Part shown: positions 6,113 to 64,000 of the stretch, piece after piece
How the letters are laid out: each line of letters begins with the position of its first letter
Position numbering within the stretch: the first letter of the stretch is position 1
Origin: a virus
Direction: 5' to 3' (one strand)
Virus record (IMG/VR): IMGVR_UViG_3300023174_000102
Span: 1-64,000 of that record
DNA: 64,000 nt
Notes under the pieces: model-generated
What the model was told of the DNA's origin: nothing
Databases searched by the model: none
What the model saw: only the letters and a program-made list of their open reading frames with translations
Translations under genes and position numbers: made by a program

Positions 6113-7723
6113 ATGGCAGTTAATAAGAATATAGGTGGAAGATCACAGTCAGCAAATGACTTCCTTGCACCGTATGCACCAACAATTGGGACAGCAACAG
6201 ATGTTGGAACAGGTCGAGCATATAATAATGGAGCAGCAACAGTAACATTTACTGGAACTGGTCCAAATGCAGCGACCTCCTATACAGTTTATGCTGTTGA
6301 AGATAATACAAAAACTGCCACTGGTGTATCATCTCCTTTGACTGTAACTGGTCTTGCATCAGGAACAAACTATACATTTAAGGTATATGGAACAAATACT
6401 CAAGGAGGCAGAGGTTCTGATTCATCAGCATCTAACCAAATAACAGCAACAACAGTTCCTCAAACACCAACACTTGGAGCAGTAACAAATACTTGTTCTG
6501 GTCGTGGATTTGGTGATGGCTTAATTACTGTTGCTATGACAGCAAACGGTACTGGTGGAAAAGCAATTTCATCATACTATGCAATTTCAAATGCTGGACA
6601 AAATGGATCAGGTGCATCTTCTACAGTAAATGTTACTGGATTGTCAGGAGGAACATCATATACATTCCAGGGCCGTGTTTCAAATGCAAATGGTAACTCT
6701 GACTTAACAGCATCATCAGGTGCAGTTGCTGCAACAACAGTACCTGCAGCACCAGGGGCTCCATCAGCATCATCACCATCATATGGAGTTGACTCTGTTT
6801 CATGGTCAGCACCATCAAATGGTGGTTCTGGAATTACAAATTACCGCTGGACATCTTCTGATGGAAAGGCTGGAGATACTGGATCAACATCAGTATCAGT
6901 AAGTCAGGAAGTAGGAACAGCACAGACATACAGTGTTTATGCAACAAATGCTTGTGGTAACTCTGCAACATCTGCTCCATCAGGAACTGTCACAACTACT
7001 TTCGGTGCATTCGGTGCATTCGGTGCTTTTGGTGCATTCGGTGCCTTCTCCGCATTCGGTGCATTCGGTGCATTCGGTGCCTTCTCCGCATTCGGTGCAT
7101 TCGGTGCATTCGGTGCCTTCTCCGCATTCGGTGCTTTTGGTGCATTCGGTGCCTTTGGTGCCTTTGGTGCCTTTGGTGCTTTCGGTGCTTACGGTGGTGG
7201 TAGCCGTATTTACTCAGTTGGTCCAGAGACCCTAATCCTAACTACAAATGGATATGTAATGGCAGCAGATCTTGAAATAGGTGACACTCTTATTTCAGCA
7301 GATGTTCCTGGATTAGGTATGTCATTTACAACAGATGAAATGAAAGCCTGGAGAAATAGTCCAGACAATTTAGAAATTGTTCCAGATAAAACAACAACAA
7401 TCAAGGCTATTGGATTATCAAATGCAACAGTTTCTGTGATGATAGATAATGAAACATACTCAGGAACTCACCATTTACTTGCAAAAAGAGATGGTGTGGC
7501 TCAGATGATTTTATCTGCAAACCTATTGACTACAGACAAGTTGTGGTCTACAAAGACAAACTCTTGGATCGATATAGTTGACTTGGTTATAACAGAGATT
7601 AGTCATCAGGTTGTTTCAATCAACTGTGAGCCACTAGATATGTTCTTTACAGAAAACTTCCTAGTCTATGATGGCTATCAGATAGATTACCCATTACCTA
7701 GCATAGATCCTACACTAGAATAA
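6113..7723 (+). CDS. Tail protein: fibronectin III domains, GAF-repeat stalk, Hint-like domain
   Basis: A 536-residue protein with AAAGGAGATA before ATG. Residues ~22-113, ~118-210 and ~212-295 look like three fibronectin type III domains (repeated LASGTNYTFKVYGTNTQG-type strand, then TTVP linker). Residues 297-360 are a tandem FGA tripeptide run with periodic FSA. Residues ~364-525 resemble a Hint (intein/hedgehog) domain: IYSVGPETLILTTNG and DLEIGDTLIS fit block A with Ser368 in the nucleophile place, SGTHHLL fits block B with its His pair, and CEPLDMFFTENFLVYDG fits the last block but ends VYD rather than VHN. Fibronectin domains and Gly-rich stalks occur in phage tail-tip proteins. Whether the Hint part cleaves itself is unknown. 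Confidence 0.75.
   Translation: MAVNKNIGGRSQSANDFLAPYAPTIGTATDVGTGRAYNNGAATVTFTGTGPNAATSYTVYAVEDNTKTATGVSSPLTVTGLASGTNYTFKVYGTNTQGGRGSDSSASNQITATTVPQTPTLGAVTNTCSGRGFGDGLITVAMTANGTGGKAISSYYAISNAGQNGSGASSTVNVTGLSGGTSYTFQGRVSNANGNSDLTASSGAVAATTVPAAPGAPSASSPSYGVDSVSWSAPSNGGSGITNYRWTSSDGKAGDTGSTSVSVSQEVGTAQTYSVYATNACGNSATSAPSGTVTTTFGAFGAFGAFGAFGAFSAFGAFGAFGAFSAFGAFGAFGAFSAFGAFGAFGAFGAFGAFGAFGAYGGGSRIYSVGPETLILTTNGYVMAADLEIGDTLISADVPGLGMSFTTDEMKAWRNSPDNLEIVPDKTTTIKAIGLSNATVSVMIDNETYSGTHHLLAKRDGVAQMILSANLLTTDKLWSTKTNSWIDIVDLVITEISHQVVSINCEPLDMFFTENFLVYDGYQIDYPLPSIDPTLE
7001..7189 (+). repeat. Tandem 9-bp (Phe-Gly-Ala) repeat with 36-bp higher order
   Basis: Twenty-one in-frame TTC/TTT-GGT-GC(A/C/T)-type triplets of codons, where every fourth unit at the left carries TCC (Ser) in place of GGT. 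That gives three nearly identical 36-base units (FGAFGAFGAFSA) followed by a run of plain FGA units. The repeat lies between the fibronectin and Hint-like domains and probably forms a flexible or aggregating stalk. Confidence 0.9.
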
Positions 7724-7731
7724 TATTTTAG

Positions 7732-7754
7732 TATGTTTTAAATTTTAAAACATA
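7732..7754. repeat. Perfect AT-rich palindrome
   Basis: Two 11-base arms, TATGTTTTAAA and TTTAAAACATA, around a single T, just after the stop of the Hint-like tail gene. A further TTTTAAAATTTTA follows. As RNA it is a weak stem, so it may be a poor terminator. As DNA it could be a protein-binding site. Confidence 0.4.
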
Positions 7755-7818
7755 TTTTAAAATTTTATATAGATAAACTTGTGATTAGGTCATAAAAATG
7801 CTAACGTATTTGTTATGA

Positions 7819-10708: not shown

Positions 10709-13700
10709 ATGTCTAATCCATCCAACCTATATGCAGAAAAAGTCTTTGCTGAGCATCCGACTGGCTTATGGGCATTGGATGATAAAGCAGACTATATTTC
10801 TTTAATTTCAGAACCACAAAGAATTTTATCAGATCCAACAAAATGGGATATAACTGGAGGAACTGCTTCGGCATATCCTAACTCAGTTGATGAACCGTTT
10901 ATTCAAAGTTATGTTGGAAGAATTGTTGCAATCCCAACATCAAATGATTCATCTTCAATTATTGCTATTAGCAAAGATATAATGAATTTAAAAGATTTTA
11001 ATAAATACCTAAAAACTTTTTCTGTTGGCGGATACTTTTATTCTGAAAGCGCATATATTGTAGGCTTTGAAATTGGATATCAGTATACAGACACAACAAG
11101 TGGACAGGATATAACTCATTTAAAAAATTACGATACCGTAATAAATAATAATTGGATTTTTATATCAGAGACATTTGATACACCACCAGATGAGACTGGA
11201 ATTAGGCTAGTATTTAAGATTAATTTTGTTGGTGGGTCAGAAACAGAAGATGCATTCTTGGTAAATGGAATAAGCCTTGGACAGTGGTCAGAAGAGTTTG
11301 CTTCAACATCTCTTGGAGTTGAGCCAATAGATATTCCTTCTGACATATCAATTGCACCACAAAAAGGAATAGTGTCAAAGTGTTATGGTCTACAGCAACT
11401 AGATGGATATTACTTAGTTGCCGATAATATGCTTAAGGCAAAAAATTCAGGAATCCCAATTGTTTATGGAACTTCAGGTTTGACAACAATGTATCCAAAT
11501 GGAGACAATCCTTCTTTAATAGTTCCAGGAGTTGGTTTATTAAATGAGTCTGGAAAGTTTAAGCAATATACCCTTGAAACTTGGCTAAGAATAAACTCAT
11601 ATAGCAATGATAGAAAAAGAATAATTGGACCAATCGCATCTGATGATGGCATATATGTTGATGGGCCTTCTATTGGACTAAAAATAGGAAATGAATATTC
11701 TACTTATTATGTTGGTGAATGGACAAGGCCAATGTTAGTTCACATGAGAGTTGGCAAAGATGTAGCATCCCTTGTTATTAATGGTCAAGAGGTTATTTCT
11801 TTAACTTATTTAACAGAAGATCTTGTTCTTCCAACTATGCTAGATGAAAATGATAAAGATCAAGATTGGATAGGTTTTTATGCACACGAGGATATATATC
11901 CAATAGAATTTGACTGTGTTGGAATTTATCCTTATATTGTCGCATCTGCTGTTGCAAAAAGAAGGTTTGTTTTTGGGCAGGGTGTTGAAATTCCAGAAAA
12001 TATAAATACATCGTATAGTGGTACATCTGTTTTTATTGATTATTCTTTTGCAGACTATACATCAAACTATTCATATCCAAAAACTGGATCATGGAATCAA
12101 GGTTTTAAAGATAATATTTCCATATCAAGTAAATCTCTTTCTGTTTTATCTCATCCTCTTCCAGAAATAGTTCTATCATCAAAAACAAAAGAAGAACTTT
12201 TTGCAGATTGTAAAGCAGTTCAGTCATCAGATACCAATAAGTTCTTTTCGTTTAGACCAAACTCATCTTGGAATTCTATTTCTGGTTATTTATTCTTTAA
12301 AAACTTTGACTCAATAAAAACTCCTGTTTCTGCATTCTATGGATCTTTTAGATTGCCACAATCATCAACTTCTATGCAAACACTTTTTAGAATTGAAAAA
12401 GAAAATACAAGCAATTACTTTTTAATACAACTTATCAATAATCAAATATCTTATGTTATAAATTACAACGGAATTACAGAAACGCTATATTCTCCATTAG
12501 TGGCAGAGCCAGGAGAGTTAGTTGACATAGGAGTTAATATTCCAGCATTTATTTCTAGGTTTGGAAATCCAGCATCAGATTTCTTTGGTTCTTTGTCAGA
12601 TCTAAGAATGTATGTTGGAGGAGATAAAACTGGATCTTCTACCTTTACTGGCAAGATATACAGAGTGGGTTTATGTTCAAACTATAATTTTCAAAAAATT
12701 AGATTTTTGTTTAATGAGATAGGTGTTCCAATCTGGAATGAAGATCTCTTTGCAGTTTATCAAAATAATCAATTAATAAATGTAGACGGAGGAGTAGATA
12801 CAACATCCATGCCACCATCAGGAGGAATAACTGATACTGCTAATGGAGCACTGTCTGGTGGCGGTGTATTAATTACTGACGAAGATAGTCTCCTTGACCA
12901 TGTTGCAACATATACATTAATTCCACAAACAATATTTGATACATACAAGTTGGCAGTATCTGCAAGCGCATACTGGGAAGATAATCTTCCCCTAACATAT
13001 TTTGCTGAATCTGTTCTTGATAAAAGAGGTGATCAGTACTTTGATCTTGATTTTATTCAATTTAATATTGATTATCCAATACCGTCAAAAACAATTGCAA
13101 TAGATACAGATCCAGAAGATTGGACATATGCAGATTTAGCAAATGAGTATGGAGTTCCAGTTCAAAGAAGTTATACATCTCTGGATAACTACTTGTTTAC
13201 TGGATATAATGATTATGAAGATTTAAAAAATAAAGTTGCAAAAGACTATAGATATGATACTGACGGTGCTGCAGTAAAAAGTTATGTAACATTTCAATAT
13301 ACAGAACTAGGAGCAAATCAGACATACTTTTATTTTACAAAAATTGAAAGACCTTCTAGAGATGGAATACTTATACCTGGGTCAGACTGGATGACAACAA
13401 AGTATGAAGTTGTAGATAATATGATTATTTATCCACCAGCAGGCGTAGATTTTAATGACCTATCTATTGTTACACATATAGAGATGAATGTTAAAGACTC
13501 AGAAAAAAACAATATTTCAATTAAAAAACTTTCGTATGCATCTCAAGCACTTAACGAATCTGATGCAAGCCCAATAGGAACAAGGTTTGGAACTTCTATA
13601 TATCCTTATACTAAGACTGGAATATATTACAATTTTAAAAGAAAAAATCCATTTTCAATTTATAATGGATCTTCCCCTTATTTATATCTAACAAAAACAA

Positions 13701-16496: not shown

Positions 16497-17840
16497 ATGG
16501 TGAGCAATATATCTAAAGCCCATTGGAATTCAGATGGGGAAAATTTACGTCTTTCTATGCCACTTACTAAAGTGGACAAGGAGCGTAGAATCGTTTCTGG
16601 TTTTGCTTCTTTAGATAATATCGATAAGCAAGATGATATTGTAACAGCAGAAGCATCAATGGCAGCATTTGCAAAGTTTCGTGGTAACATCAGAGAAATG
16701 CATCAGCCAGTAGCGGTAGGCAAAATGGTAGACTTTAAAGAAGATAAATATTTTGATCCAGAAACAAAGAAGTTTTATAAGGGTGTATTTGTATCTGCTT
16801 ATGTTTCAAAGGGTGCACAGGATACATGGGAAAAGGTTCTTGATGGAACACTGACTGGTTTTTCAATCGGTGGTCGTATGAACAAGTGGGATGATGCTTA
16901 TGATGAGAAGTCAGATAAAGCAATTAGAGTTATTAAGGAATATGATTTAGTAGAGTTGAGTCTTGTTGATTCCCCTGCTAATCAGTTTGCAAATATTGTT
17001 TCAGTAGAAAAAGTTGATGGCGTAGATGTAATCAAGGCAGACTCTACTGTATTAGAAAATGTTTTTTATGATAAAGAAAATGGAATTGTAATCGCATCTG
17101 AAAATGAATCAGAAGTCAGCCCAATTACTGGTGAGCAGATGGAAAATATAGGGTTCGTTGAAAAAACGGATAGTGAAAAGACAAACATGATAAAATTCTT
17201 AGTTGATAGTGCTAAAGGCATTAATACTTCTAAGATGAACAAGGAGGAAAACCTTATGGCAAAAGCAACAAAAAATACAACAGATGAGATTGTTTCAAAA
17301 TCAGAAGTTGTTGTTGAAAACACAGAGGTCGCTCCAGAGGCAGATCAGGTAGTAGAAGCAGTTGTAGAAGAAGTAGTTAGCGCTGATGAAGCAGTAACTA
17401 CAGAAGCAGTTGCTGAACCTGTTGCTGAAGAAGTTGCAAAGTCAGATGACGTTGTTGCAGAAGCAGTTGCAGAGGCTACAGTAGCATCTAAGTCAGATGA
17501 AGTAATTGCAGAAGCAGTTGCAGAAATCAATGACGGTCTTAATAAAGCCTTTAGCGATCTAGTAGAAGTAGTCAAGTCATTACAAGCAGAGGTAGAACTA
17601 TTGAAGTCTACCAAGGTTGATGTTGACGTGGCAAAGAGTTCATTTGAGGCAGTTGCAAAAGATATTGCATCAGCAACAAATGTATTTAATGAATTTGGTA
17701 AGCGTGTGGAACTTGTAGAGCAAGACACTGCTTTCCGAAAGTCTGGCGATCTCGGCGAGATAGTACAGAATCAACCTGAAACGGTTGAAAAATCCCTATG
17801 GGGCGGTAGTTTCCTCAAAACAGCCGATCTATTCAGTTAG
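16497..17840 (+). CDS. Prohead protease (XkdF/S78-2 type) fused to scaffold-like tail
   Basis: A 447-residue protein. Residues ~15-175 match the XkdF-like phage serine protease fold: RIVSGFASLDNIDKQDDIV, MHQP with His69, GTLTGFSIGGR with Ser123 and YDLVELSLVDSPANQ. It would cut scaffold and capsid precursors during head maturation. From about residue 254 the protein is an acidic, Ala/Val/Glu-rich coiled-coil segment (repeats of EAVAE, VVEEVV), like a scaffolding domain. A second in-frame start with its own strong site lies at 17256. Order portal-protease-capsid is conserved in this phage type. Confidence 0.85.
   Translation: MVSNISKAHWNSDGENLRLSMPLTKVDKERRIVSGFASLDNIDKQDDIVTAEASMAAFAKFRGNIREMHQPVAVGKMVDFKEDKYFDPETKKFYKGVFVSAYVSKGAQDTWEKVLDGTLTGFSIGGRMNKWDDAYDEKSDKAIRVIKEYDLVELSLVDSPANQFANIVSVEKVDGVDVIKADSTVLENVFYDKENGIVIASENESEVSPITGEQMENIGFVEKTDSEKTNMIKFLVDSAKGINTSKMNKEENLMAKATKNTTDEIVSKSEVVVENTEVAPEADQVVEAVVEEVVSADEAVTTEAVAEPVAEEVAKSDDVVAEAVAEATVASKSDEVIAEAVAEINDGLNKAFSDLVEVVKSLQAEVELLKSTKVDVDVAKSSFEAVAKDIASATNVFNEFGKRVELVEQDTAFRKSGDLGEIVQNQPETVEKSLWGGSFLKTADLFS
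17256..17840 (+). CDS. Nested scaffolding protein (internal in-frame start)
   Basis: AAGGAGG at 17241-17247 stands 8 bases before an ATG that is in frame with the protease gene (its Met254). Translation from it gives a 194-residue acidic, Ala/Val/Glu-rich, helix-prone protein sharing the protease C-terminus. This is the same layout as lambda C/Nu3, where a free scaffold is made from inside the protease gene. The ribosome site and composition are seen; production of the separate protein is inferred. Confidence 0.6.
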   Translation: MAKATKNTTDEIVSKSEVVVENTEVAPEADQVVEAVVEEVVSADEAVTTEAVAEPVAEEVAKSDDVVAEAVAEATVASKSDEVIAEAVAEINDGLNKAFSDLVEVVKSLQAEVELLKSTKVDVDVAKSSFEAVAKDIASATNVFNEFGKRVELVEQDTAFRKSGDLGEIVQNQPETVEKSLWGGSFLKTADLFS

Positions 17841-17863
17841 AAAAAATCACAGGAGGTGACAAT

Positions 17864-19006
17864 ATGTCGGAACAAAATATAGAAAAGAACCAGCCAGGTA
17901 CTTCAGGTAACCTAGGCGGAACAGCACCAGGACTCTATCAGGGTCAGGGAGCATTTGCATCAGGTTCAGATGCAGGAGTAAATGTACCAGGTAATTATAC
18001 TGACGGTGGTGTATTGGGTAATATCCCAACAGCACGATTCGGAGTTAATGATGGTCCAAACGCAGTAAATCCTTCAGGTGAGGCTGGATCAGGTATCCTA
18101 CGCCCAGAGCAGGCACGTCGTTTTATTGACTACGTGTGGGATGCAACCATTCTCGCCCAAGATGGCCGTCGCGTTACTATGAGAGCCAACACAATGGAAC
18201 TCGAAAAGGTAAACGTCGGAGAGCGTGTAATCCGTGCAGCAGCGCAAGCAGTTGGCGACTACACAAACGCAGGTGCAACATTCTCAAAGGTTGAATTGAC
18301 TACAAAGAAGATTCGTCTTGACTGGGAAGTATCTGCAGAAGCACTAGAAGATAACATCGAAGGTGCAGCACTAGAAGATCACATTGTTCGCTTGATGACA
18401 AATGCTTTCGGTAATGATATCGAAGACCTTGCAATCAACGGAGATGGCGCAACAGGCAATTTCTTGTCAATCATGAACGGTTTCGTAAACCGTGTAAAGA
18501 CTGAGGGAGATGCACATGAAGCAGTTGTTACAGTTGCAAACAATAACTGGACAACAGACGCAATGCAGAAGATTATTCTTGCAATGCCACGTAAGTACCG
18601 TGCTATCAAGTCTAACTTGAAGTTCTACGCAGGAACAGATGCATTCCAGGGAATCGTTAAGAATAACGGTACTCTAGCAGATGCAGTTGCTGAAGCATTT
18701 GCTTCACAGGCTGGTGGAACACCAATGAACCGTCAGGCATACCTTGATGGTGGAGCACAGACATTCGGTGGAGCACGTACAACACGTGTTCTAGGTGTAG
18801 ATGTTCAGGAAGTTCCTTACTACCCTGCAGGATATGTCGACTTGACATTCCCACAGAACCGTGTATGGGGATTCCAGCGCGATATCACAGTAAACCGTGA
18901 ATACCGTCCAAAGAAGGATACTGTAGAATACACAGTATTCGTTCGTTTTGGTATTCAGTGGGAAGAGCAGGATGCAATTGCATTCGCTGATGCTGCAGCA
19001 GAGTAA
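17864..19006 (+). CDS. Major capsid protein (HK97 fold)
   Basis: A 380-residue protein after a very strong site (AGGAGGTGAC). The first ~70 residues are Gly-rich and flexible, then RRFIDYVWDATILAQDGRRV starts the folded part. KKIRLDWEVSAEALEDNIEG and MTNAFGNDIEDLAINGDG correspond to the long spine helix region and P-domain of HK97-like capsids of the PBSX/XkdG group. The C-terminus has DITVNREYRPKKDTVEYTVFVRF, a usual closing strand of this family. Located directly after the protease/scaffold gene and followed by a strong hairpin, as expected for the most abundant virion protein. Confidence 0.9.
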   Translation: MSEQNIEKNQPGTSGNLGGTAPGLYQGQGAFASGSDAGVNVPGNYTDGGVLGNIPTARFGVNDGPNAVNPSGEAGSGILRPEQARRFIDYVWDATILAQDGRRVTMRANTMELEKVNVGERVIRAAAQAVGDYTNAGATFSKVELTTKKIRLDWEVSAEALEDNIEGAALEDHIVRLMTNAFGNDIEDLAINGDGATGNFLSIMNGFVNRVKTEGDAHEAVVTVANNNWTTDAMQKIILAMPRKYRAIKSNLKFYAGTDAFQGIVKNNGTLADAVAEAFASQAGGTPMNRQAYLDGGAQTFGGARTTRVLGVDVQEVPYYPAGYVDLTFPQNRVWGFQRDITVNREYRPKKDTVEYTVFVRFGIQWEEQDAIAFADAAAE

Positions 19007-53995: not shown

Positions 53996-55123
53996 ATGAA
54001 CTCATTTAAGAAAATCGCTCTAGCCATGGTTGCAGCCATGACTACCGCAACAATCATAGCAACACCTGCAAGTGCTGCTGTAATGACAGTCGCTGTATCA
54101 TTGGACGGAACTGCTAATACAACAGCATCCGCAATTGCTACACCTGCTGCATTGCCAGTCCCTGCAGACAACTCAGTTGACGCTGCTGATGCACTTAAGT
54201 TTGTAGCAACAGTAGATGCTGGAACATCAGTTACAGCAGTAGCAACAAACGCAACAATCGTGTCTGCACTACACACATCTGCTGCACCAGTAGGAGCAAC
54301 ATCAGGATCATCATCTTTGACAGTTGCAACTGGTACAGGAACAACAGCAACATTTTATGTCTATACAAAGACAACAGCAATTGGTACAGTTGCTATTACA
54401 AATGGTGGAACAACACTTACATACTACGTACAGGGAACTGCTGGAAAGATTAATAATCTAACAGTATCTGCTCCTGCTGCTGGTGCTGCTGGTACAAAGC
54501 AAGACATCACAGTAACAGCAACTGACGTATTTGGAAATAAGGTTTCAGGTAAGTCAATTACTGCAACAGTGTTTGCTGCAACAGCAACAGTTGATTCAGC
54601 AACAGCAACAACTGGCGCAACACTTTCAGACTTTGGAGTTGCAAAGTTTGCTGCAACACTTCCAACAACTGGAACACGAGCACTAATTATGTTTGCTCCA
54701 ACAACTTCAACAGATGGAACATCTGCAGATGTAGTTGGTCTAACAGCACGTACACTTGCTCCATTTGCAGAGATTGCAGTTCGTGATCTAGTATCAGAAC
54801 TTGCTGCTGCTAATGCTGCTAAGGATGCAGCAATTGCTGCTAAGGCTACATCAGATGCTGCAGTTGTAAAGTCTGCTGCAGATGCTGCTGCTGCTAAGGT
54901 TGCTTCAGATGCTGCTCTTGCAGCAGAAAAGGCTGCTTCAGCAAAGGCACTAGTAGATGCTAAGGTTGCATCAGATAAGGCACTTGCTGATAAGGATGCA
55001 CAGATTGCTAAGTTGACTGCAGATAATGCTGCAGTGCTTGCAACTCTAAAGGCATCATTCAATGCACTTGCTAAGCAATGGAATGCAAAGAATCCAAAGG
55101 CTAAGGTTACTTTGGTTAAGTAA
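53996..55123 (+). CDS. Secreted Ig-like, Ala-rich surface protein
   Basis: A 375-residue protein with signal peptide (MNSFKKIALAMVAAM, then TPASA cut). The mature part is Ala/Thr/Val-rich with one Ig-like domain (AGTKQDITVTATDVFGNKVS, SITATVFAATATVDSATA). The last ~110 residues are an Ala/Lys/Asp coiled coil (AIAAKATSDAAVVKSAADAA). Such secreted proteins resemble bacterial S-layer or surface proteins more than virion proteins; the resemblance to actinobacterial surface proteins is from memory. Lies right after the terminase and before a terminator, so it forms its own unit. Role (host surface change or superinfection exclusion) is speculative. Confidence 0.7.
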   Translation: MNSFKKIALAMVAAMTTATIIATPASAAVMTVAVSLDGTANTTASAIATPAALPVPADNSVDAADALKFVATVDAGTSVTAVATNATIVSALHTSAAPVGATSGSSSLTVATGTGTTATFYVYTKTTAIGTVAITNGGTTLTYYVQGTAGKINNLTVSAPAAGAAGTKQDITVTATDVFGNKVSGKSITATVFAATATVDSATATTGATLSDFGVAKFAATLPTTGTRALIMFAPTTSTDGTSADVVGLTARTLAPFAEIAVRDLVSELAAANAAKDAAIAAKATSDAAVVKSAADAAAAKVASDAALAAEKAASAKALVDAKVASDKALADKDAQIAKLTADNAAVLATLKASFNALAKQWNAKNPKAKVTLVK

Positions 55124-55137
55124 TTAATCCAACACTA

Positions 55138-55169
55138 AAGGGGTTGCCAATTAAGGTAGCCCCTTTTTT
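55138..55169 (+). terminator. Rho-independent terminator
   Basis: AAGGGGTTGCC pairs with GGTAGCCCCTT (two G-U pairs) around AATTAA, followed by a run of T's. Ends the secreted-protein unit. Confidence 0.85.
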
Positions 55170-55183
55170 GTGCAATAAAATGG

Positions 55184-55189
55184 TATAAT
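55184..55189 (+). promoter_or_regulatory. Extended -10 promoter
   Basis: TGG-TATAAT, 15 bases after the terminator. Transcript would begin near 55196, at the hairpin 55198-55212. Confidence 0.5.
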
Positions 55190-55197
55190 CATCCTAA

Positions 55198-55212
55198 CAG
55201 ACATCTTGTCTG
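55198..55212 (+). promoter_or_regulatory. 5' leader hairpin before the PA14-like gene
   Basis: CAGACA and TGTCTG pair around a 3-base loop two bases before AAGGGGG. The probable transcript starts at the foot of this stem. Confidence 0.5.
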
Positions 55213-55227
55213 CAAGGGGGAAGGCAA

Positions 55228-57384
55228 ATAAAACGAATAATACGCATAGTAACAGCAACAGTTTTAGCCTTTGGCTGGCTTTTTATAGCACCCCAAGATG
55301 CTCATTCTGATGACCCTCTAACTGTTTCAGCCAAGGAAATTGAAAACCTCAATAGCGCAGTAGATAAATTAGACTATAAAGATGGTCTAATAAATATGAT
55401 TGATATAGCAGAGAACAAGTTTATGTACGCTAAAAATCTGCGGGATATCAGAGATGTCTCAATTAAAAACTACGAAGATGCAGTAGAAGCAGAAGCCTTG
55501 GCATTAGAAGCAAAAGATATTGCTCAGTCAAATGTAGATGGTCAGACAGTATTGATTGGTTTAGCCCTTGAAAATAAAAATGATGCCAAAGATGCACTTG
55601 ATCTAGCCAATATAAATTTACAAACTGCACAATCAAATTTGCAAAGTGCAAGTGGTCAAGGACTTAGATATGATGTTTATAGTTTAATTAGACAAAATGG
55701 CCAGGCCGTACCCTATCAATACCTATGTTCTGGTGTTTTAAATGGAAATGCTATGTCTCCTGGATCTGCTACATGTGGATATTATCAGAATTTTATTGTT
55801 AAATTTACTGGAAAAATAACAGTTCCTTCATGGTTTACATCAACAAAATTTGCAGGATACACAGATGATGGCTTTAAAATGTATGTCAATGGAAACCTTG
55901 CTATAAATAATTGGCGAGAGCAGGGAACAACTTGGAGTGCATATTCTCCAATATACGATGTAAGTGAAGAGAAAGAATTAAATGTAGAGATTTGGTGGTA
56001 TAACGGTGGTGGTCCAGGATATTATCATCTAGGTTGGGGAATCCCTTATGACTCATCTGGTAGTTTAGGTTGGACTGGTGCAGGATGTGATTATGCTGGA
56101 AATCCAAGAGTATGGGGACAAAACTTTAGTTGTAATCTCAATACATTTTCATCTGGTTCTGAACCAACACAGCAACAACTTGATGCGTATAATCAAGCGT
56201 TATCTGATAAAAATGCAGCACAACAAAATTATAATGATAAATTAACTATTTATAATGCAGAAGTTGCTACATTAAACTCATACAATCAAGAATTAACTAA
56301 CAAAACATCTGAGTATGACAATGCAGTAAATGATACAGAAGATGCTTTATCTGAAAAAAATAATTCTATATCTAATTTTAATAATGCCGTACTTGATGTT
56401 AATAGTGCAATTGATGACGCATGGCGTTACTATGATGAGCAATCACAAAGAGAAATTCAAAGAGCAATTGCTCAGGCAGCAGCCAACGCTGCAGCAAACC
56501 AGCCAAAGCCAGAGCCATCTCCAAAGCCAACAGAAGAGGCACCAAAGCCAAAGCCTTCTCCAGTACCAACAGATAAGCCTGAGCCTCAGCCAAGCAATGT
56601 TACTGGAACAGAAGAACCAGGTCCAAAGCCAACACAACCAGGTCCAAAGCCTACAGAGCCTGGACCTAAGCCAGATCCAACAGATAACCCAAAGCCTGAG
56701 CCTACAAAGCCAGAGCACCCTAAGCCAACACCTACAGAAGAGCCTAAGCCAAAGCCAGAGCCTGCTCCAGAGCCTTCTGTCGAGCCTTTACCAGAGCCTA
56801 AACCACTTCCAAGGCCAGACTTCAAGCCAGCAGAAAATCTTGATCCAGCAATCAAAGATGCAGCGTTAGCAGCACTTATCCCAGAAAAGGGTACAGGAAA
56901 TGCAGAAGACTTGTCTGGTGTTATTGCAAACCTTACAAGCAAGGATAATAAATTAGTTAAACTTTCTGTAGAGCAAACAGCAGCAGTTAGCCAAACCCTC
57001 AAGTCTTTAACACAAGAAGCAAAAACACAAGTTGCTGAGAAACTTGGTATTTCTGCATCAGAAGTTGCAAAAGTTGCAGATCAAATAAAATCTAACCCAG
57101 CACTTGCTGCTGCATTTGTTGCATTTAATGATAAAGCAGTAGAAGCAGGAGATACTCCAATGCCATTTACATTAGCAGATGCAGTAACAGAAGTACAAAC
57201 AGATGAATTTTTAGCAGACCCACTTGGAGCAGTATTTGCAGTGGATCCATTAGAACTTTTATCCAATTTTTCTGAGTTGGGTATGGACATGACAGATGAT
57301 CAGAGAGAAAAAGCACAAGAAGTAATTGTCCCAGTGGTCATTGCATCACAAATTGCAGGGGCAATGATAAGGAGGAACAAATGA
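55228..57384 (+). CDS. Secreted PA14-like protein with Pro-rich repeats (non-standard ATA start)
   Basis: A 718-residue frame. The first ATG lies at 55396, but the frame is open upstream and encodes a clean signal peptide (KRIIRIVTATVLAFGWLFIA, then QDAHS) that begins with ATA at 55228, 3 bases after the GGGGGAAGG site. After a coiled coil (to ~150) comes a PA14-like domain at ~150-310 (FAGYTDDGFKMYVNGNLAIN, EIWWYNGGGPGYYHLGWG). A second coiled coil, a long Pro/Lys/Glu repeat (PGPKPTEPGPKP), and a helical C-terminus follow. A PA14-like domain suggests carbohydrate binding. If ATA is not used, the protein starts at 55396 and lacks the signal. Confidence 0.7.
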   Translation: MKRIIRIVTATVLAFGWLFIAPQDAHSDDPLTVSAKEIENLNSAVDKLDYKDGLINMIDIAENKFMYAKNLRDIRDVSIKNYEDAVEAEALALEAKDIAQSNVDGQTVLIGLALENKNDAKDALDLANINLQTAQSNLQSASGQGLRYDVYSLIRQNGQAVPYQYLCSGVLNGNAMSPGSATCGYYQNFIVKFTGKITVPSWFTSTKFAGYTDDGFKMYVNGNLAINNWREQGTTWSAYSPIYDVSEEKELNVEIWWYNGGGPGYYHLGWGIPYDSSGSLGWTGAGCDYAGNPRVWGQNFSCNLNTFSSGSEPTQQQLDAYNQALSDKNAAQQNYNDKLTIYNAEVATLNSYNQELTNKTSEYDNAVNDTEDALSEKNNSISNFNNAVLDVNSAIDDAWRYYDEQSQREIQRAIAQAAANAAANQPKPEPSPKPTEEAPKPKPSPVPTDKPEPQPSNVTGTEEPGPKPTQPGPKPTEPGPKPDPTDNPKPEPTKPEHPKPTPTEEPKPKPEPAPEPSVEPLPEPKPLPRPDFKPAENLDPAIKDAALAALIPEKGTGNAEDLSGVIANLTSKDNKLVKLSVEQTAAVSQTLKSLTQEAKTQVAEKLGISASEVAKVADQIKSNPALAAAFVAFNDKAVEAGDTPMPFTLADAVTEVQTDEFLADPLGAVFAVDPLELLSNFSELGMDMTDDQREKAQEVIVPVVIASQIAGAMIRRNK
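56500..56820 (+). repeat. Proline-rich repeat in the PA14-like gene
   Basis: Tandem CCAAAGCCAACA/CCAGAGCCT-type units encode PKPEPSPKPTE, PGPKPTEPGPKP and PEPKPEPAPE. Composition is unlike the neighbouring genes but like the tape measure hinge at 30999. It likely spans the cell wall. Confidence 0.8.
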
Positions 57385-57974: not shown

Positions 57975-58499
57975 ATGACCTGTATTGTTGCTTTACGCCA
58001 TGAAGATAAAATTTATATGGCAGGAGATCGTGGAGCATCAGATGATGGGGTCATTCTTTCTCTTGAATCACCTAAAGTTTGGAAAACTGGACCATACCTA
58101 ATTGGATATGCTGGATCAATGGATGGTGAAAGAATGAGACATAACTTTAAACCAACTGCTCCAAATATTAAAGATACAGACAAGTTTATGCAAACAAAGT
58201 TTGTAAAAGAACTTCGTGAATTTTATAACGAGTTCTGGATTGACACATCAAAAGATGGAGAGTTTAGTTTAATAATTGGTATTCGTGGTGAAATATATGA
58301 ACATAGTTCTGGAGATATGTCTTTATCTAAATATTCATTACCATATGTTTCTATAGGCTCTGGATCAGAATATGCATATGGAGTTATGTATGCAACAGAT
58401 AAGCAAAAAAATGCAAGGAACAGAGTACAGCAAGCAGTATCTGCAGCAATTAAATTTAACCCATCATGCATGGGACCAGTTGACATCATAAGTGCTTAG
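57975..58499 (+). CDS. Proteasome/HslV-like Ntn hydrolase
   Basis: A 174-residue protein whose start MTCIVALRHEDKIYMAGDRG matches proteasome beta subunits and HslV. Removing Met exposes Thr1; counting from it, Asp17 (GDRG) and Lys33 (ESPKVWKTG) fall exactly at the catalytic places, and YAGSMDG gives the usual Gly-Ser turn. It should be an N-terminal-nucleophile peptidase or a related hydrolase. It lies in its own unit behind a strong promoter. The unusual GAGAGGG site precedes ATG. No ATPase partner is visible in the window. Confidence 0.8.
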   Translation: MTCIVALRHEDKIYMAGDRGASDDGVILSLESPKVWKTGPYLIGYAGSMDGERMRHNFKPTAPNIKDTDKFMQTKFVKELREFYNEFWIDTSKDGEFSLIIGIRGEIYEHSSGDMSLSKYSLPYVSIGSGSEYAYGVMYATDKQKNARNRVQQAVSAAIKFNPSCMGPVDIISA

Positions 58500-58514: not shown

Positions 58515-58733
58515 ATGAGCGAAGAATTTGAAGAGATCCTGAAGGACATTCAAAACATAGAGTCAGATTTTGATGAGTTTGAGATTTGGCTTAACAATGG
58601 AATTGAGCGGGGATGGGTAACAGAACCATTCTGTAATACTCATGAAGGAGATCCTTACATGACAGATGAAGAGCAGCAAGAGTGGGAAGAAGGCGGAGAC
58701 CCATGCCAAGTAGTTTTAAAAATCAAACAATAA
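58515..58733 (+). CDS. Small acidic hypothetical protein
   Basis: A 72-residue very acidic protein (EFEEILKDIQNIESDFDEFE, TDEEQQEWEEGGD) with two Cys. Leaderless start with a full-consensus promoter. No family recognised. Its acidity would suit a DNA-mimic or inhibitor type of protein, but that is a guess. Confidence 0.65.
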   Translation: MSEEFEEILKDIQNIESDFDEFEIWLNNGIERGWVTEPFCNTHEGDPYMTDEEQQEWEEGGDPCQVVLKIKQ

Positions 58734-58753
58734 ACAATAATAAGGAGAAAACA

Positions 58754-59629
58754 ATGAAGAAAGTACTACTAGCACTACTATCAGTTACCATTGCATTTAC
58801 AGCAATGCAGCCATCACAAGCAGAAGATCAAAAGGTTTTAGCAATCATTGACTCTGCTATTGATTCTACAAAGTTTAACTCAATCATATATGAGGCTTGC
58901 TTTACAACAGTAAAGAGCATGTCTTGCCCTAATGGTCAGTTATTTATGGAAGGACCAAAGTCAGCATCAGCACCTTGGCCAATGCAGACAAATGGAGTCA
59001 ACTTTGATGTCAATAACGCAACTTTTCATGGGGATGCTATGGTTAAGTCCGCTTTGACAGTAAATCCAAACCTAAAGATTGTCTTTATTCGATTTAATGA
59101 TGTTACAACCACTGGAAATTCAAGAGGAGATGTAGCAGCACTTCGTATGGCTTTTGATTGGGTAACAAAGAATGCATCAAAGTATAGCATTGATGCTGTT
59201 TCCATTAGCCAGTCTTCAGTTAGTGCAGGAAATCTAGCACTATGTTCAACAGATACAACTATTATTAAGTCTGTTGCATCTTTAAACTTGCAAAATATTC
59301 CAGTTTTTGTTGCAACTGGTAACGACAGTCGAAAAGATATTATCGGATTTCCATCATGTGTTAAGGGTGTAGTTCCAGTCGGAGCACTTGCAAATGAAAC
59401 TCAACTTGAGAAAGCAACTAACAGTGGTCCTGGACTTTCAATGGTTTCACCTGGCAAGGTAAGCATCACAAAGTACAATGGATCTTCAACAGATACTGCT
59501 GGAAGTTCTGTAGCAACTGTAGTATCTGCAGCATCATATGTAAATCGCAATACCTTTAAAACTTTTGGAGAATATCTATCATCTCTTCCAAAGATTTTAA
59601 TTGGGACAGCATCATATATCCGTAATTAA
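58754..59629 (+). CDS. Secreted subtilisin-like (S8) serine protease
   Basis: A 291-residue protein starting at the ATG after AAGGAG. Signal peptide KKVLLALLSVTIAFTAMQPS, cut near SQA-ED. The S8 triad is visible as Asp33 (AIIDSAIDS), His92 (TFHGDAM) and Ser252 (AGSSVATVV), with oxyanion Asn190 (FVATGN). The core is small, and no propeptide domain is obvious, as the enzyme domain follows the signal at once. It would act outside the membrane. Its target is unknown; host cell wall proteins or virion release are possible. Confidence 0.75.
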   Translation: MKKVLLALLSVTIAFTAMQPSQAEDQKVLAIIDSAIDSTKFNSIIYEACFTTVKSMSCPNGQLFMEGPKSASAPWPMQTNGVNFDVNNATFHGDAMVKSALTVNPNLKIVFIRFNDVTTTGNSRGDVAALRMAFDWVTKNASKYSIDAVSISQSSVSAGNLALCSTDTTIIKSVASLNLQNIPVFVATGNDSRKDIIGFPSCVKGVVPVGALANETQLEKATNSGPGLSMVSPGKVSITKYNGSSTDTAGSSVATVVSAASYVNRNTFKTFGEYLSSLPKILIGTASYIRN

Positions 59630-59797: not shown

Positions 59798-60463
59798 ATG
59801 CTAAATACCAATGGGACTGCTATACAAAGTAACAGACCACATAAGTTTTTTGAAAGATATCTAGATAATGATCTAGATGAACTTGCTAAATTTTTAGAAG
59901 TAAAGTATCAACTAATTAAGGATGCACAACTTCGTGGTGTTAGCACAATGGAAAATGATGAAGGAGTATGGCTAGAGTCTGGAAGTTTATCAACTGTAAA
60001 GTGGAGAGAGTACAATGTGTTTCAACTTTATCATCCATCTCTACATAAGTTATACTCAGAATTATCAAGTACAGTCAAAGAAGCATGTCTTTACTATGGT
60101 GTAGACTTTGAAAAACAGCAATACTATGTTCAGGGTTGGTTTAACATTAATGAATCAGGCAATGGAAAACTTAACTGGCACGATCATGGGGCTCCAGGTG
60201 CTCCTAATTTTCATGGATATTACTGTGTAAAGGCCGAACCATCAACCACATACTATAGACTTTTTGGTGATCCAAACAGGGAAGTTGCAAATCATAATAT
60301 TGATAATAGAATGATTGTTTCAGAAATGGGTCATCCACACGCTCAGGGTGATTGGGACTGGCCTGGATCAAGAATTACAGTTGCTTATGATATTCAGCCT
60401 CTTAAGTCTCTCTTGAACGCTGGTCGTCACACAATAGAACAGCATTGGATACCATTACTTTAA
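59798..60463 (+). CDS. 2OG-Fe(II) oxygenase-like protein
   Basis: A 221-residue protein after AAAGGAGA. Metal-site pattern: GNGKLNWHDHGAPGAPNFHG (His128, His130 and following), GHPHAQGDWDWPGSRITVAYDI (His179/His181, Arg192). This fits the second class of phage 2OG oxygenases (PF13759-like pattern) rather than the oxygenase at 48471. It forms the first gene of a run with carbamoyltransferase and two SGNH-like proteins. Hydroxylation of a base, sugar or protein is possible; substrate unknown. Confidence 0.7.
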   Translation: MLNTNGTAIQSNRPHKFFERYLDNDLDELAKFLEVKYQLIKDAQLRGVSTMENDEGVWLESGSLSTVKWREYNVFQLYHPSLHKLYSELSSTVKEACLYYGVDFEKQQYYVQGWFNINESGNGKLNWHDHGAPGAPNFHGYYCVKAEPSTTYYRLFGDPNREVANHNIDNRMIVSEMGHPHAQGDWDWPGSRITVAYDIQPLKSLLNAGRHTIEQHWIPLL

Positions 60464-60464
60464 A

Positions 60465-60551
60465 ATGAAAAAAATAATTAAAATTATAAGGTACTACATT
60501 ATTAAAAGAAAAATTAAAAAAAACCCTATAGATAATGACTTTATATATTAA
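60465..60551 (+). CDS. Possible 28-residue basic peptide
   Basis: A short Lys/Ile-rich frame (KKIIKIIRYYIIKRKIKKNP, then IDNDFIY) in the 99-base gap between the oxygenase and carbamoyltransferase. There is no good ribosome site, so it may be chance. The gap is otherwise a very AT-rich leader with TTGGAGAG before the next gene. Confidence 0.2.
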   Translation: MKKIIKIIRYYIIKRKIKKNPIDNDFIY

Positions 60552-60562
60552 TTTGGAGAGAC

Positions 60563-62005
60563 ATGATAATTCTTGGTATTAATGAAACTACACATGACGC
60601 TTCAGTATCTTTGATTAAAGATGGAGAAATACTTTTTGCTGGTCATTCCGAAAGATATAGCAAACAAAAAAATGACTGGTTCACAAACAAAGAACTTATC
60701 AAAAATGCGATTCAGTATGGCTACCCAGATCAGATTGCCTATTACGAGAAGCCTTTACTTAAGAAACTTAGAGTAAAGACTAGGGGTGGATTTGGTGGAG
60801 ACAAGCCATGGTTTGAGTCTACAGAACTTGGGGACCTGCCAAGAAAAAATTTTGGTCACCACTACTCTCATGCCTCAGCGGGATACTATACAAGTTCTTT
60901 TCATGATGCCGTTATTGTTGTACTTGATGCCATAGGAGAGTTTAATACATCTACAATTTGGGTTGGTGAAGGAGAAAAGATTAAACTAAAATATAAACAA
61001 AACTATCCAGTTAGTTTTGGTCTTTTCTACTCAGCATTTACACAACTTATCGGACTTATGCCAAACCAAGAAGAATACATTATGATGGGTATGGCAGCAT
61101 ACGGTGACTGGCGCAGATACTATAAAGAAGTTGACGAATATTTCCCTAAATATAATAAGCAAAAATACAACTTCCATAAAGGCATCCATGACTGGGGCAT
61201 GCCAATAACAGAGCAAGATAAATTTGATATTGCTGCTGCAGTCCAGGTTGTTTACGAACAAAGACTAAATGATTTTATGCATATGGCCTATTCAATTACT
61301 GGGAAAAAGAATTTAGTCTTCATGGGTGGTTGTGCGCTCAACTCATCAGCAAACACTTTGCTATGGAATATATTTGACATGGTTTGGATCATGCCAAACC
61401 CAGGTGATGCTGGATCATCATTAGGTGCAGCAGCAGCCCTGTACGGAAAGCATATCAACTGGAAGACCCCATACCTTGGCTATGATCTTGGCGGAGAATA
61501 CCCAGTCCAGCAAATTGTGGACGGTATATTGAAAGATGGAATCGTAGCAGTAGCATCAGGCAGAGCAGAGTATGGACCAAGAGCGCTAGGCAATAGAAGT
61601 ATCCTTGCGGACCCAAGAGATCCAAATATTAAGGACAAGGTTAATTTAATTAAACAGAGAGAGTTGTTTAGACCTTTTGCTCCAGTAGTTTTGGAAGAAT
61701 GTGCATCTACGTGGTTTGACATGGACTTTGCAAGTCCCTATATGCAGTATACAGTTAAGTGTCTTAAGCCAGAAAAAATTCCATCCGTTGTTCACGCTGA
61801 TGGGACATCTAGAGTTCAAACAGTAAATAGAGATCAACATAGGGGTTTGTATAGAGTTTTAAATAAGTTTTATGTTGAAACTGGTGTTCCAGTACTGCTC
61901 AATACTAGTCTTAACATAAAAGGTCAGCCACTACTTAATGATGAAACAGACATCATTAAATGGGAAAAAGAATACCTTACAAAAATTATTGGACCAAATT
62001 TATGA
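60563..62005 (+). CDS. NodU/CmcH-type carbamoyltransferase
   Basis: A 480-residue enzyme with TTTGGAGAG before ATG. It has the N-terminal Kae1-like fold (LGINETTHDASVSLIKDGEI, FGHHYSHASAGYY metal/adenylate motif, VVLDAIGEFNTSTIWVGEGE, MGGCALNSSANTLLWNIFDM) and the C-terminal domain with SGRAEYGPRALGNRSILADP and VLLNTSLNIKGQPLL. It transfers carbamoyl from carbamoyl phosphate through a carbamoyl-adenylate to a hydroxyl. In phages the target may be a modified base or a sugar. It overlaps the next gene by four bases (ATGA). Confidence 0.85.
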   Translation: MIILGINETTHDASVSLIKDGEILFAGHSERYSKQKNDWFTNKELIKNAIQYGYPDQIAYYEKPLLKKLRVKTRGGFGGDKPWFESTELGDLPRKNFGHHYSHASAGYYTSSFHDAVIVVLDAIGEFNTSTIWVGEGEKIKLKYKQNYPVSFGLFYSAFTQLIGLMPNQEEYIMMGMAAYGDWRRYYKEVDEYFPKYNKQKYNFHKGIHDWGMPITEQDKFDIAAAVQVVYEQRLNDFMHMAYSITGKKNLVFMGGCALNSSANTLLWNIFDMVWIMPNPGDAGSSLGAAAALYGKHINWKTPYLGYDLGGEYPVQQIVDGILKDGIVAVASGRAEYGPRALGNRSILADPRDPNIKDKVNLIKQRELFRPFAPVVLEECASTWFDMDFASPYMQYTVKCLKPEKIPSVVHADGTSRVQTVNRDQHRGLYRVLNKFYVETGVPVLLNTSLNIKGQPLLNDETDIIKWEKEYLTKIIGPNL

Positions 62006-62910
62006 AAGAACACAAAGAACTAACACAGTACCTAATGAGGAAGATTGTAAAGAAAAAGAACACTCATGCACTTTTTTTTAATGAAATAGACAGTGTTGTA
62101 AGACAAAAAGAAGAAGAGTTTTTAATTTATGGTGAATTGCTCAGAGAAGATTATGACCAGGATGATAGCGTAAGATATTATTTTAACTCTTTAGGTTATC
62201 GCTCAGATGAGTTTACAAATTATCATGATGGACAACATATATTATTTGCTGGTTGTTCAGAAACAGAGGGTCAGGGTGGTAACTTGGAATCTTTGTGGGC
62301 CCACATGGTGTATAAAAAACTTTCTGAGACAAAAAAAATATCTGGATTCTTTAACTTGTCAAGAGGAGGCTGGGGACACGACATAATTATCTCAAATATA
62401 ATCGAGTATATTAAAAGATATGGAAAGCCAGATAAGATTTATATATTGTTCCCAAATCTTTCAAGAGACTTTGATTGGCAAGGTCTTGAACATAACGAAG
62501 AGTTGTACTATTATTCAATAAAGACTACATTTTTTAGTAAAAAACAATTTATTTTATCAGATGGTACAGTAAGACAAAAACAAAAGTTAAAGGAGCAAAG
62601 AGATTTAGTAACCAAGTTTATAAACTTGATAAAACTATTTGAAGAATATTGTGCTTCAAACAACATAGAACTAATTTGGTCAACATACTCTATACCTGAT
62701 GGCAAAAACTATAAAAACCTAAATGTTTTTAACAATTTTATTGAGATGTTGGATGCTGATGAAATTATTTCTAAAAGCAAAAAATTGTTTAAAGAAGAAC
62801 TGTACAATAAAAAAAATATAATAAACAAAAGAGATGGTCATCAAGGATATATTTTTCACTACCACTGGGCACAAAAATTTTTAGGTTTATCAACAGAACA
62901 AAGACTATAG
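62002..62910 (+). CDS. SGNH-like hydrolase family protein A
   Basis: A 302-residue protein; start is the ATG of the ATGA overlap with the carbamoyltransferase. Block I is HILFAGCSETEGQGG (Ser of a GCS motif), a Gly block is NLSRGGWGHDI, and the last block is KRDGHQGYIFHYHWA with Asp and His. This agrees with an SGNH/GDSL-type acyl hydrolase or transferase. It is paralogous to the next gene over the whole length. N-terminal ~40 residues form a short helix. Likely target: acyl or acetyl group on a sugar or wall polymer. Coupling to the carbamoyltransferase supports a shared substrate. Confidence 0.65.
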   Translation: MKEHKELTQYLMRKIVKKKNTHALFFNEIDSVVRQKEEEFLIYGELLREDYDQDDSVRYYFNSLGYRSDEFTNYHDGQHILFAGCSETEGQGGNLESLWAHMVYKKLSETKKISGFFNLSRGGWGHDIIISNIIEYIKRYGKPDKIYILFPNLSRDFDWQGLEHNEELYYYSIKTTFFSKKQFILSDGTVRQKQKLKEQRDLVTKFINLIKLFEEYCASNNIELIWSTYSIPDGKNYKNLNVFNNFIEMLDADEIISKSKKLFKEELYNKKNIINKRDGHQGYIFHYHWAQKFLGLSTEQRL

Positions 62911-62918
62911 GATAAATA

Positions 62919-63803
62919 ATGCAAGAATATATAATGAAAAAAATTTCAGAATCTAATAATATGAACGCATTGTTTTTTAATAAAATAGATAGCATTGTGA
63001 GATCAAAAGAAGAAGAGTTTTTAATAAATAGTGAAAAAATATTGCCAGAATTTATGGGAGACGATAACGTAAGATATTACTTTAATTCTTTAGGTTTTCG
63101 TTCAGATGAGTTTTTAGAAACTCATATAGGTAAGCATATACTCTTTGCTGGCTGTTCAGAAACAGAAGGATTTGGTGGCAGTTTAGAAGACTGTTGGTCT
63201 CATATGGTGTATACAGAAATCTGCAAAACAGAAAAAATATCTGGATTCTTTAATCTATCAAGGGCTGGTTGGGGAAATGAAATAATAATAGCAAATATAA
63301 TTCAGTATATTAGCAGGTACGGTAAACCAGATAAAATTTACATGCTTCTACCAAATCTTTCAAGAATGTTTGAATACGTTGGACAAGAAGAAGGCCTAGA
63401 AATATATCGGCACACACAACTAACCCCCTATTGGTCAAAAAAGGAGGTAGAAGGAAATAATGGAGAAAAAAGAAAAAGGCAGACCATAGAGCATCAAAGA
63501 AACATAATTCCATCATTTGTAATTTTAATGAAACTCTTTGAAGAATATTGCATTTCTAATAATATAAAATTGGTATGGGCAACTTGGGCACAAGAAGATG
63601 GAGAAAACTATAAAGGTTTAAATGTTTTTAATAGTTTTATCAAACTTCCAGACCATGCAGATGTAATTTTGGAAAGTAAAAATTTTCTTACCAAAGATAA
63701 AGAAAAAAGAAAGCACTTACTAAAAAAAAGAGACGGACACCACGGTTACCTATATCACTACATGTGGGCACAAACATTTTTGGGTCTGCTTGAAACAAAG
63801 TAA
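62919..63803 (+). CDS. SGNH-like hydrolase family protein B
   Basis: A 294-residue paralogue of the previous protein. The same blocks are present: HILFAGCSETEGFGG, NLSRAGWGNEI, KRDGHHGYLYHYMWA. The two proteins agree over nearly all regions, including the N-terminal NALFFNKIDSIV. The nucleophile Ser and the terminal Asp-x-His are retained in both, so both may be active, with different specificity or as a heterodimer. Its start follows GATAAATA with no good ribosome site, so coupling from the upstream gene is likely. Confidence 0.65.
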   Translation: MQEYIMKKISESNNMNALFFNKIDSIVRSKEEEFLINSEKILPEFMGDDNVRYYFNSLGFRSDEFLETHIGKHILFAGCSETEGFGGSLEDCWSHMVYTEICKTEKISGFFNLSRAGWGNEIIIANIIQYISRYGKPDKIYMLLPNLSRMFEYVGQEEGLEIYRHTQLTPYWSKKEVEGNNGEKRKRQTIEHQRNIIPSFVILMKLFEEYCISNNIKLVWATWAQEDGENYKGLNVFNSFIKLPDHADVILESKNFLTKDKEKRKHLLKKRDGHHGYLYHYMWAQTFLGLLETK

Positions 63804-63846: not shown

Positions 63847-64000
63847 ATGGCAGCAAAAGGATCACTAGAAGCAATCATTGAGGTTGCAAAGAAGGAAGTG
63901 GGCACAATTGAAGGCCCAAAGGATAATGAAACAAAGTACGGCGCTTGGATTAAGGTAAACTTCCAACCATGGTGCCAGTCATTCGTTTCTTGGTCAGCAT
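63847..64000 (+). CDS. CHAP-type endolysin, N-terminal fragment
   Basis: The window ends inside a gene of at least 51 codons with a strong AGGAGGA site. The product starts ALEAIIEVAKKEVG-like (AKGSLEAIIEVAKKEVG) and has KYGAWIKVNFQPWCQSFVSW, where Cys in WCQSFVSW is the usual nucleophile of CHAP-family peptidoglycan amidases/peptidases. It would cut the wall at lysis. The rest lies outside the window. Confidence 0.75.
   Translation, partial: MAAKGSLEAIIEVAKKEVGTIEGPKDNETKYGAWIKVNFQPWCQSFVSWSA

Follow-up and report, generated by a model that had tools for sequence, protein, structure and literature searches.

A predicted O-carbamoyltransferase (CT) and the SGNH-like proteins encoded beside it in a freshwater virus form, with a probability that we put at roughly 0.6, one functional and mobile glycan-modifying module that would act inside the infected cell. 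The genes lie in the window, the whole stretch of 64,000 nucleotides that was analysed, which comprises bases 1-64000 of an IMG/VR record of 98,310 bases. The record encodes portal, head-protease, tail and DNA polymerase genes as well as a CHAP endolysin, and it carries a WhiB gene at 71165-71338 (PF02467, E 1.4e-12). Since whiB is an actinophage marker in the literature (PMC10202952, PMC6802176), a freshwater actinobacterium is the most probable host.

The preliminary description had placed four consecutive genes here, with an ATGA overlap and an 8-base gap, and the open reading frames on the plus strand agree with it in every coordinate. OX (59798-60463, +; 221 aa) has a 2OG-Fe(II)-oxygenase fold according to an AlphaFold2 model, PDB structure matches and invariant residues. 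It is followed by CT (60563-62005, +; 480 aa), recognized as an O-carbamoyltransferase of the NodU/CmcH/TobZ type by Pfam, PHROG and profile matches and by its motif residues, and by two SGNH-like genes, S1 (62002-62910, +; 302 aa), ATGA-coupled to CT and assigned from its reading frame, the overlap and the fold and motifs of its family, and S2 (62919-63803, +; 294 aa), a tandem paralogue of S1 assigned by AlphaFold2, Foldseek and invariant residues. The overlap occupies 62002-62005 and the gap 62911-62918; the length of S1 is counted from the ATGA start, and an in-frame ATG is also present at 61960. The cassette occupies a slot between the terminase and endolysin genes whose conserved borders lie on the same strand: an HslV/proteasome-like peptidase (57975-58499, +; Pfam Proteasome E 1e-5, PHROG 1040; 74 loci) and a subtilisin-like protease with a signal-peptide-like start (58682-59629, +; PHROG 3677 'protease', E 1e-10; 71 loci) on the left, and on the right the CHAP endolysin gene, which starts at 63847-64000 (+) and runs on to about 64491 of the record (L002:5847-6491, Pfam CHAP E 9e-11).

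Purifying selection acts on all four genes, with NG86 dN/dS values of about 0.04-0.06 for CT, 0.10-0.18 for OX and 0.14-0.22 for SGNH. The G+C content of S1 and S2 (30-31%) is lower than that of CT (38%) and of the window (37%), which is consistent with the SGNH copies having been swapped or acquired separately from CT. Promoter and terminator scans were both near background (35 found versus 26.8 expected, and 7 versus 3.2, respectively), with the sole exception of a good site directly before the endolysin. Between the terminase and the cassette, at 53996-57384, lie a secreted-looking repeat protein and a PA14/long proline-rich protein; both are possible surface or virion acceptors, and the proline-rich stretches are conceivable targets of prolyl-hydroxylase-like genes. 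Elsewhere, this phage encodes a KatG-like catalase-peroxidase that appears full-length by eye (L003:785-3031, -), and AhpC/AhpD-like genes (f72/f71) adjoin CT-SGNH in relatives, which suggests an oxidative-stress cargo.

The CT is certain, as a prediction from its sequence, to be a full NodU/TobZ-type O-carbamoyltransferase, and the preliminary NodU/CmcH assignment was sound. Both Pfam domains are detected far above their curated cut-offs (Carbam_trans_C, E 2e-53, 180.9 bits against a cut-off of 27; Carbam_trans_N, E 1e-33, 117.5 bits against 24), the protein belongs to PHROG 1601 'Nol-like carbamoyltransferase' (E 9e-105), and its profile matches among solved structures are NovN (E 2e-103), GdmN and TobZ (E 5e-91). 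These closest solved relatives are antibiotic O-carbamoyltransferases. The metal and catalytic residues (H, HHxxH, D and D, and the C-domain R/K/R with NTS) are all in place as H11, H99/H100/H103, D122, D282, R340, K364, R366, R370 and NTS447-449, with metal-site and carbamoyl-AMP-domain roles that we take to be those of the equivalent residues in TobZ.

S1 and S2 are 56% identical and, as was first proposed, paralogous; neither has a convincing match in Pfam, PHROG or NCBIfam. Single-sequence searches of IMG/VR returned one relative for S2, two for S1 and six for another SGNH protein, and tblastn of S2 against a phage collection gave no match. Because these proteins change too quickly to be caught by pattern searches, hidden Markov models were applied to CT-centred loci instead, and the divergent family so collected has 111 members in the fetched loci. 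In S2 numbering, G78, S80, G84, R149, C211, D272 and H274 are invariant among 59 sequences. The block I serine and the block V aspartate and histidine of SGNH proteins are thus represented by S80, D272 and H274 (59/59), and the block II glycine by G117 (56/59). At the block III position, N146 in S2 and N in S1 (FPNLSR), the family has D in 26, N in 13 and E in 7 of 59. The S2 model is of high quality (AlphaFold2 pLDDT 94.4, pTM 0.92) and its top Foldseek matches are mostly SGNH esterases, although weak ones (best E 1.2e-3, probability 0.99, TM up to 0.57); a profile match to a lysophospholipase-L1-like esterase was also found (E 2e-4). There is good reason to call S1 and S2 SGNH-like, but esterase activity may be absent because the block III asparagine is not conserved and the Foldseek match is weak. 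A third SGNH-like protein of this phage, 24-27% identical to S1 and S2, is solitary and not beside CT (L003:3925-4935, -; record 81925-82935).

The main evidence for a module comes from the gene neighbourhoods of related viral CTs. From 581 matching IMG/VR loci the best 80 were analysed, and their CTs collapsed at 95% identity into 56 clusters. An SGNH gene lies immediately beside CT in 40 of these 56 clusters, compared with 56 of 1320 background genes having an SGNH neighbour; the sample was chosen by CT, its CTs, at least 81% identical, are not independent lineages, and p-values ignore relatedness. One to four SGNH genes are present, before or after CT, 55 of the 63 in CT loci sit inside the CT-contiguous block, and neighbouring CT and SGNH genes mostly overlap or are separated by only a few bases, commonly with an ATGA junction. 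No SGNH gene was present in the 33 OX-bearing loci that lack CT (545 kb; Fisher p 1e-12, relatedness ignored). In the endolysin slot SGNH adjoins CT in 20/36 clusters, whereas outside that slot it is kept in 20/20, with 17 different flanking gene pairs; CT and SGNH therefore appear to move as one unit. The 16 of 56 clusters without an adjacent SGNH gene are all in the endolysin slot and indicate that CT can work without one. The exact order OX-CT-SGNH-SGNH was not found elsewhere, but parts of it recur, namely OX-CT-SGNH with a single SGNH gene (L006/L078 and L086) and CT-SGNH-SGNH (several other contigs). A marine gammaproteobacterial MAG contig, possibly phage (L166:4863-9485 and 6940-7813), encodes a CT 45% identical to that of the window, preceded by two SGNH-like genes that are of GCSF type by eye, and also a kinase/NMN-adenylyltransferase-like pair that is similar to one protein (f7) of the phage family to which the window belongs.

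The association extends to bacteria, where SGNH is adjacent or fused in 19 of 77 CT loci compared with 26 of 782 background genes. In a Verrucomicrobia MAG (L178), two successive ORFs (1111 and 1104 aa) each encode a fusion in which a complete CT follows an SGNH/GDSL domain at the N-terminus; the polysaccharide cluster around them is of the sialic-acid type, with NeuB, UDP-GlcNAc 2-epimerase and glycosyltransferases. Among 289 genomes of the phylum Verrucomicrobia, one further genome has a full-length fusion (1092 aa) and most CTs are unfused. Fusion of the domains argues strongly for SGNH and CT activities that serve one pathway, and the earlier suggestion that CT and the SGNH pair are linked on one substrate is strongly supported by comparative genomics as regards the link. 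Phage CTs and 5hmC carbamoyltransferases were already known. Open-licence papers on carbamoyltransferases with SGNH/GDSL proteins in polysaccharide or O-antigen contexts were searched, and neither the SGNH partner nor the fusions were found described there.

The oxygenase-fold protein belongs elsewhere. Its model (AlphaFold2 pLDDT 88.6, pTM 0.88) has a double-stranded beta-helix with 104 PDB matches at E<=1e-3, of which the 50 listed are 2OG oxygenases apart from two uncharacterized proteins of the same shape that rank first. The HDH...H...R pattern noticed earlier (H128-D-H130, H181, R192) is exact, and all its residues are invariant in 56 relatives except D129 (D in 55, E in 1). The canonical HxD/E...H iron triad is replaced by HxH, so we call OX an oxygenase-fold protein, an assignment for which the modelled fold gives good grounds. 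The sequence has no family match, its search against the PDB gave chance matches to formins only, and among phage proteins it matched only cyanophage proteins, at E 0.03-0.07. Only 21 of the 56 CT clusters have OX no more than five genes away from CT. OX also occurs in 33 loci without CT and usually belongs to a block of its own, f21-f6-OX-f19, where f19 lacks any Pfam or PHROG match but is, by inspection, a probable glycosyltransferase. In CT-less phages OX, often as tandem paralogues, accompanies f21/f6/f19 or comes right after the tail-fibre/minor-tail-like genes f14/f23. The full cassette, as seen in relatives L005, L082 and L053, runs protease, f21, f6, OX, f19, one or two PF13640-type oxygenases, CT, SGNH and endolysin; f21, f6, f19 and the PF13640 genes are missing from the window slot, and this is why OX stands next to CT. 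OX is thus a separate, loosely linked enzyme of an adjacent putative glycosyltransferase/tail-fibre module and not a partner of CT, and a pathway in which it hydroxylates a substrate that CT then carbamoylates, as originally proposed, was rejected because the two assort independently. Many more 2OG/JmjC-type oxygenases were noted at L002:9108-15867 and 17258-17872, including Asp_Arg_Hydrox, PF13640 copies (some tandem) and a JmjC_2 protein. An unusual fusion of 475 aa joins a luciferase/F420-type monooxygenase, recognized by eye, to a C-terminal PF13640 2OG oxygenase (L003:10616-12043, -; record about 88616-90043).

The genes around CT in other phages and in bacteria point to sugars. The flanks of phage CT/SGNH include Gly_transf_sug, GlcNAc-type and GT61 glycosyltransferases and an NTP transferase, Pelagibacter phage Mosig has SGNH and a UDP-Ara4N-type aminotransferase near CT, and cyanophage CTs occur in nucleotide-sugar/heptose clusters, some beside tail fibres. 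In bacteria, carbamoylation of LPS heptose is known, with wapO as the putative transferase (PMC8005017), and the candidate mutants involved in infection of P. syringae pv. porri by phage KIL3b included CT insertions (PMC7216180). Two sulfotransferase-like genes elsewhere in the genome of this phage (L003:9949-10485 and 12967-13545, -) also speak for a glycan; they lie beside 2OG oxygenase genes and could be another glycan-modifying set. Counting against a glycan module, the cassette of this phage has no glycosyltransferase next to it.

A sugar target for CT is nonetheless much better supported than DNA, and not merely as likely, as had been suggested. Synthesis of 5-carbamoyloxymethylcytosine on phage DNA, with OX supplying the hydroxymethyl group in a TET-like manner, would draw on a proven phage-type 5hmC carbamoyltransferase of the same family (PMC8670742) and on the hydroxylase-type fold adjoining CT, yet it is highly improbable here. 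Neither thymidylate synthase nor dCMP hydroxymethylase (PF00303) was found in the 98-kb record, which is possibly incomplete, whereas the proven 5hmC-CT contigs and Xanthomonas phage Xp15 do carry thymidylate synthase, in Xp15 close to CT. The window CT reads PRALGNRS where the 5hmC enzyme has PRALCNTT, at positions equivalent by motif to TobZ G421/R423, and G343/R345/S346/K364/R370 where the 5hmC enzyme has C/T/T/N/M; bacterial rows of this comparison were picked by canonical motifs, so that only the contrast between the window and 5hmC enzymes counts. The latter is 25% identical to the window CT and the most distant of 93 tips in the tree, and glycosyltransferases flank the CTs of unmodified contigs (PMC8670742). 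DNA modification was rejected on the missing thymidylate synthase and the missing 5hmC-CT residues.

Two further explanations concern the proteins modified and the reality of the pair. The putative glycosyltransferase, CT, SGNH and OX might together decorate tail-fibre or other virion proteins, with OX hydroxylating a side chain that is later glycosylated. The OX modules that follow f14/f23 in CT-less phages, the several cyanophage CTs near tail fibres and a cassette position suggesting late expression make this worth considering, but we judge it unlikely: the bacterial CT-SGNH pair sits in a surface-polysaccharide cluster, OX and CT assort independently, f19 matches no Pfam or PHROG family, and no acceptor protein was recognized. 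Rather less credible is that SGNH acts independently of CT, for instance as small esterases that aid lysis or wall remodelling with the endolysin, adjacency being hitch-hiking in a variable slot. The slot does adjoin the CHAP endolysin, the difference in G+C is consistent with separate acquisition, and 16 of the 56 CTs lack an adjacent SGNH gene; however, SGNH accompanies CT into endolysin-free contexts (20/20), is absent from the 33 CT-less loci, is translationally coupled to CT through the overlap and is fused to CT in bacteria, and inspection by eye reveals no signal peptide in either S1 or S2.

For the CT-SGNH module, the gene content, modelled folds, conserved residues, recurrent adjacency, coupling, co-mobility and fusions are observations, and from them we infer the glycan substrate, the cytosolic site, the SGNH reaction and the benefit. 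CT would transfer the carbamoyl group from carbamoyl phosphate, with ATP, to a sugar hydroxyl, the acceptor hydroxyls being those of a glycan, a glycan precursor or a glycan-bearing virion or surface protein, and the SGNH-like proteins would use their serine for acyl reactions on that acceptor. In the simplest case, which is much less certain than the module as a whole, SGNH would free an O-acetylated hydroxyl that CT then carbamoylates (acyl-for-carbamoyl exchange); alternatively, it could add or remove a neighbouring acyl group. Since CT depends on ATP and carbamoyl phosphate from the cytosol, the SGNH half fused to it is expected to act there too, in contrast to the exported OatA/PatB/AlgX type. 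The phage might gain an altered surface or virion glycan, e.g. for receptor masking, or superinfection exclusion through a changed host surface; the late-region position would fit virion glycan modification. A bolder and speculative version holds that SGNH strips O-acetyl groups and CT caps the freed hydroxyls, an O-acyl to O-carbamoyl exchange that would be a new surface or virion glycan conversion by phages, with SGNH paralogues swapped to match the host glycan.

CTs are widespread in aquatic phages, and no assigned role was found for them there. The SGNH partner and the bacterial fusions offer a concrete, testable hypothesis for their function and set a large CT branch apart from the DNA-modifying 5hmC carbamoyltransferases. 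Should the two proteins indeed remodel glycans of the surface or the virion, this would be an unrecognized route by which freshwater actinophages change receptor recognition, and a function could be assigned to many SGNH-like phage genes that now lack annotation.

Comparison with known systems delimits what is particular to this cassette. The window CT has both Pfam domains and all motif residues checked of NodU, NolO, TobZ, GdmN and NovN, but it is shorter (480 aa versus 576-702 for the PDB chains), virus-encoded and coupled to SGNH genes. With the 5hmC carbamoyltransferase (MetaGPA; Xp15-like phages) it has the superfamily and phage coding in common, while that enzyme differs in its altered active-site motif and thymidylate synthase/dCMP deaminase neighbours as well as in identity (25%). 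The 'Nol-like' CTs of cyanophages and pelagiphages (S-SSM7, P-SSM2, HTVC008M) are likewise phage-borne members of PHROG 1601, often in sugar/LPS-type clusters (PMC3037559), yet are at best 28-43% identical to the window CT; in the annotated regions examined with the SGNH HMM none has a directly adjoining SGNH gene, that of Mosig lying two genes from CT. Fold matches and the Ser/Asp/His residues connect S1 and S2 to SGNH/GDSL hydrolases such as TesA, acetyl xylan esterase, isoamyl acetate esterase and the OatA catalytic domain, from which their family departs by GCS in place of GDS, DxH in place of DxxH spacing, a variable block III residue and invariant R149 and C211. The bacterial SGNH-CT neighbours and fusions in polysaccharide loci have the same two domains, adjacent or fused, as the window pair; unlike it, the fusions are single chains with a canonical GDS motif on a bacterial chromosome.
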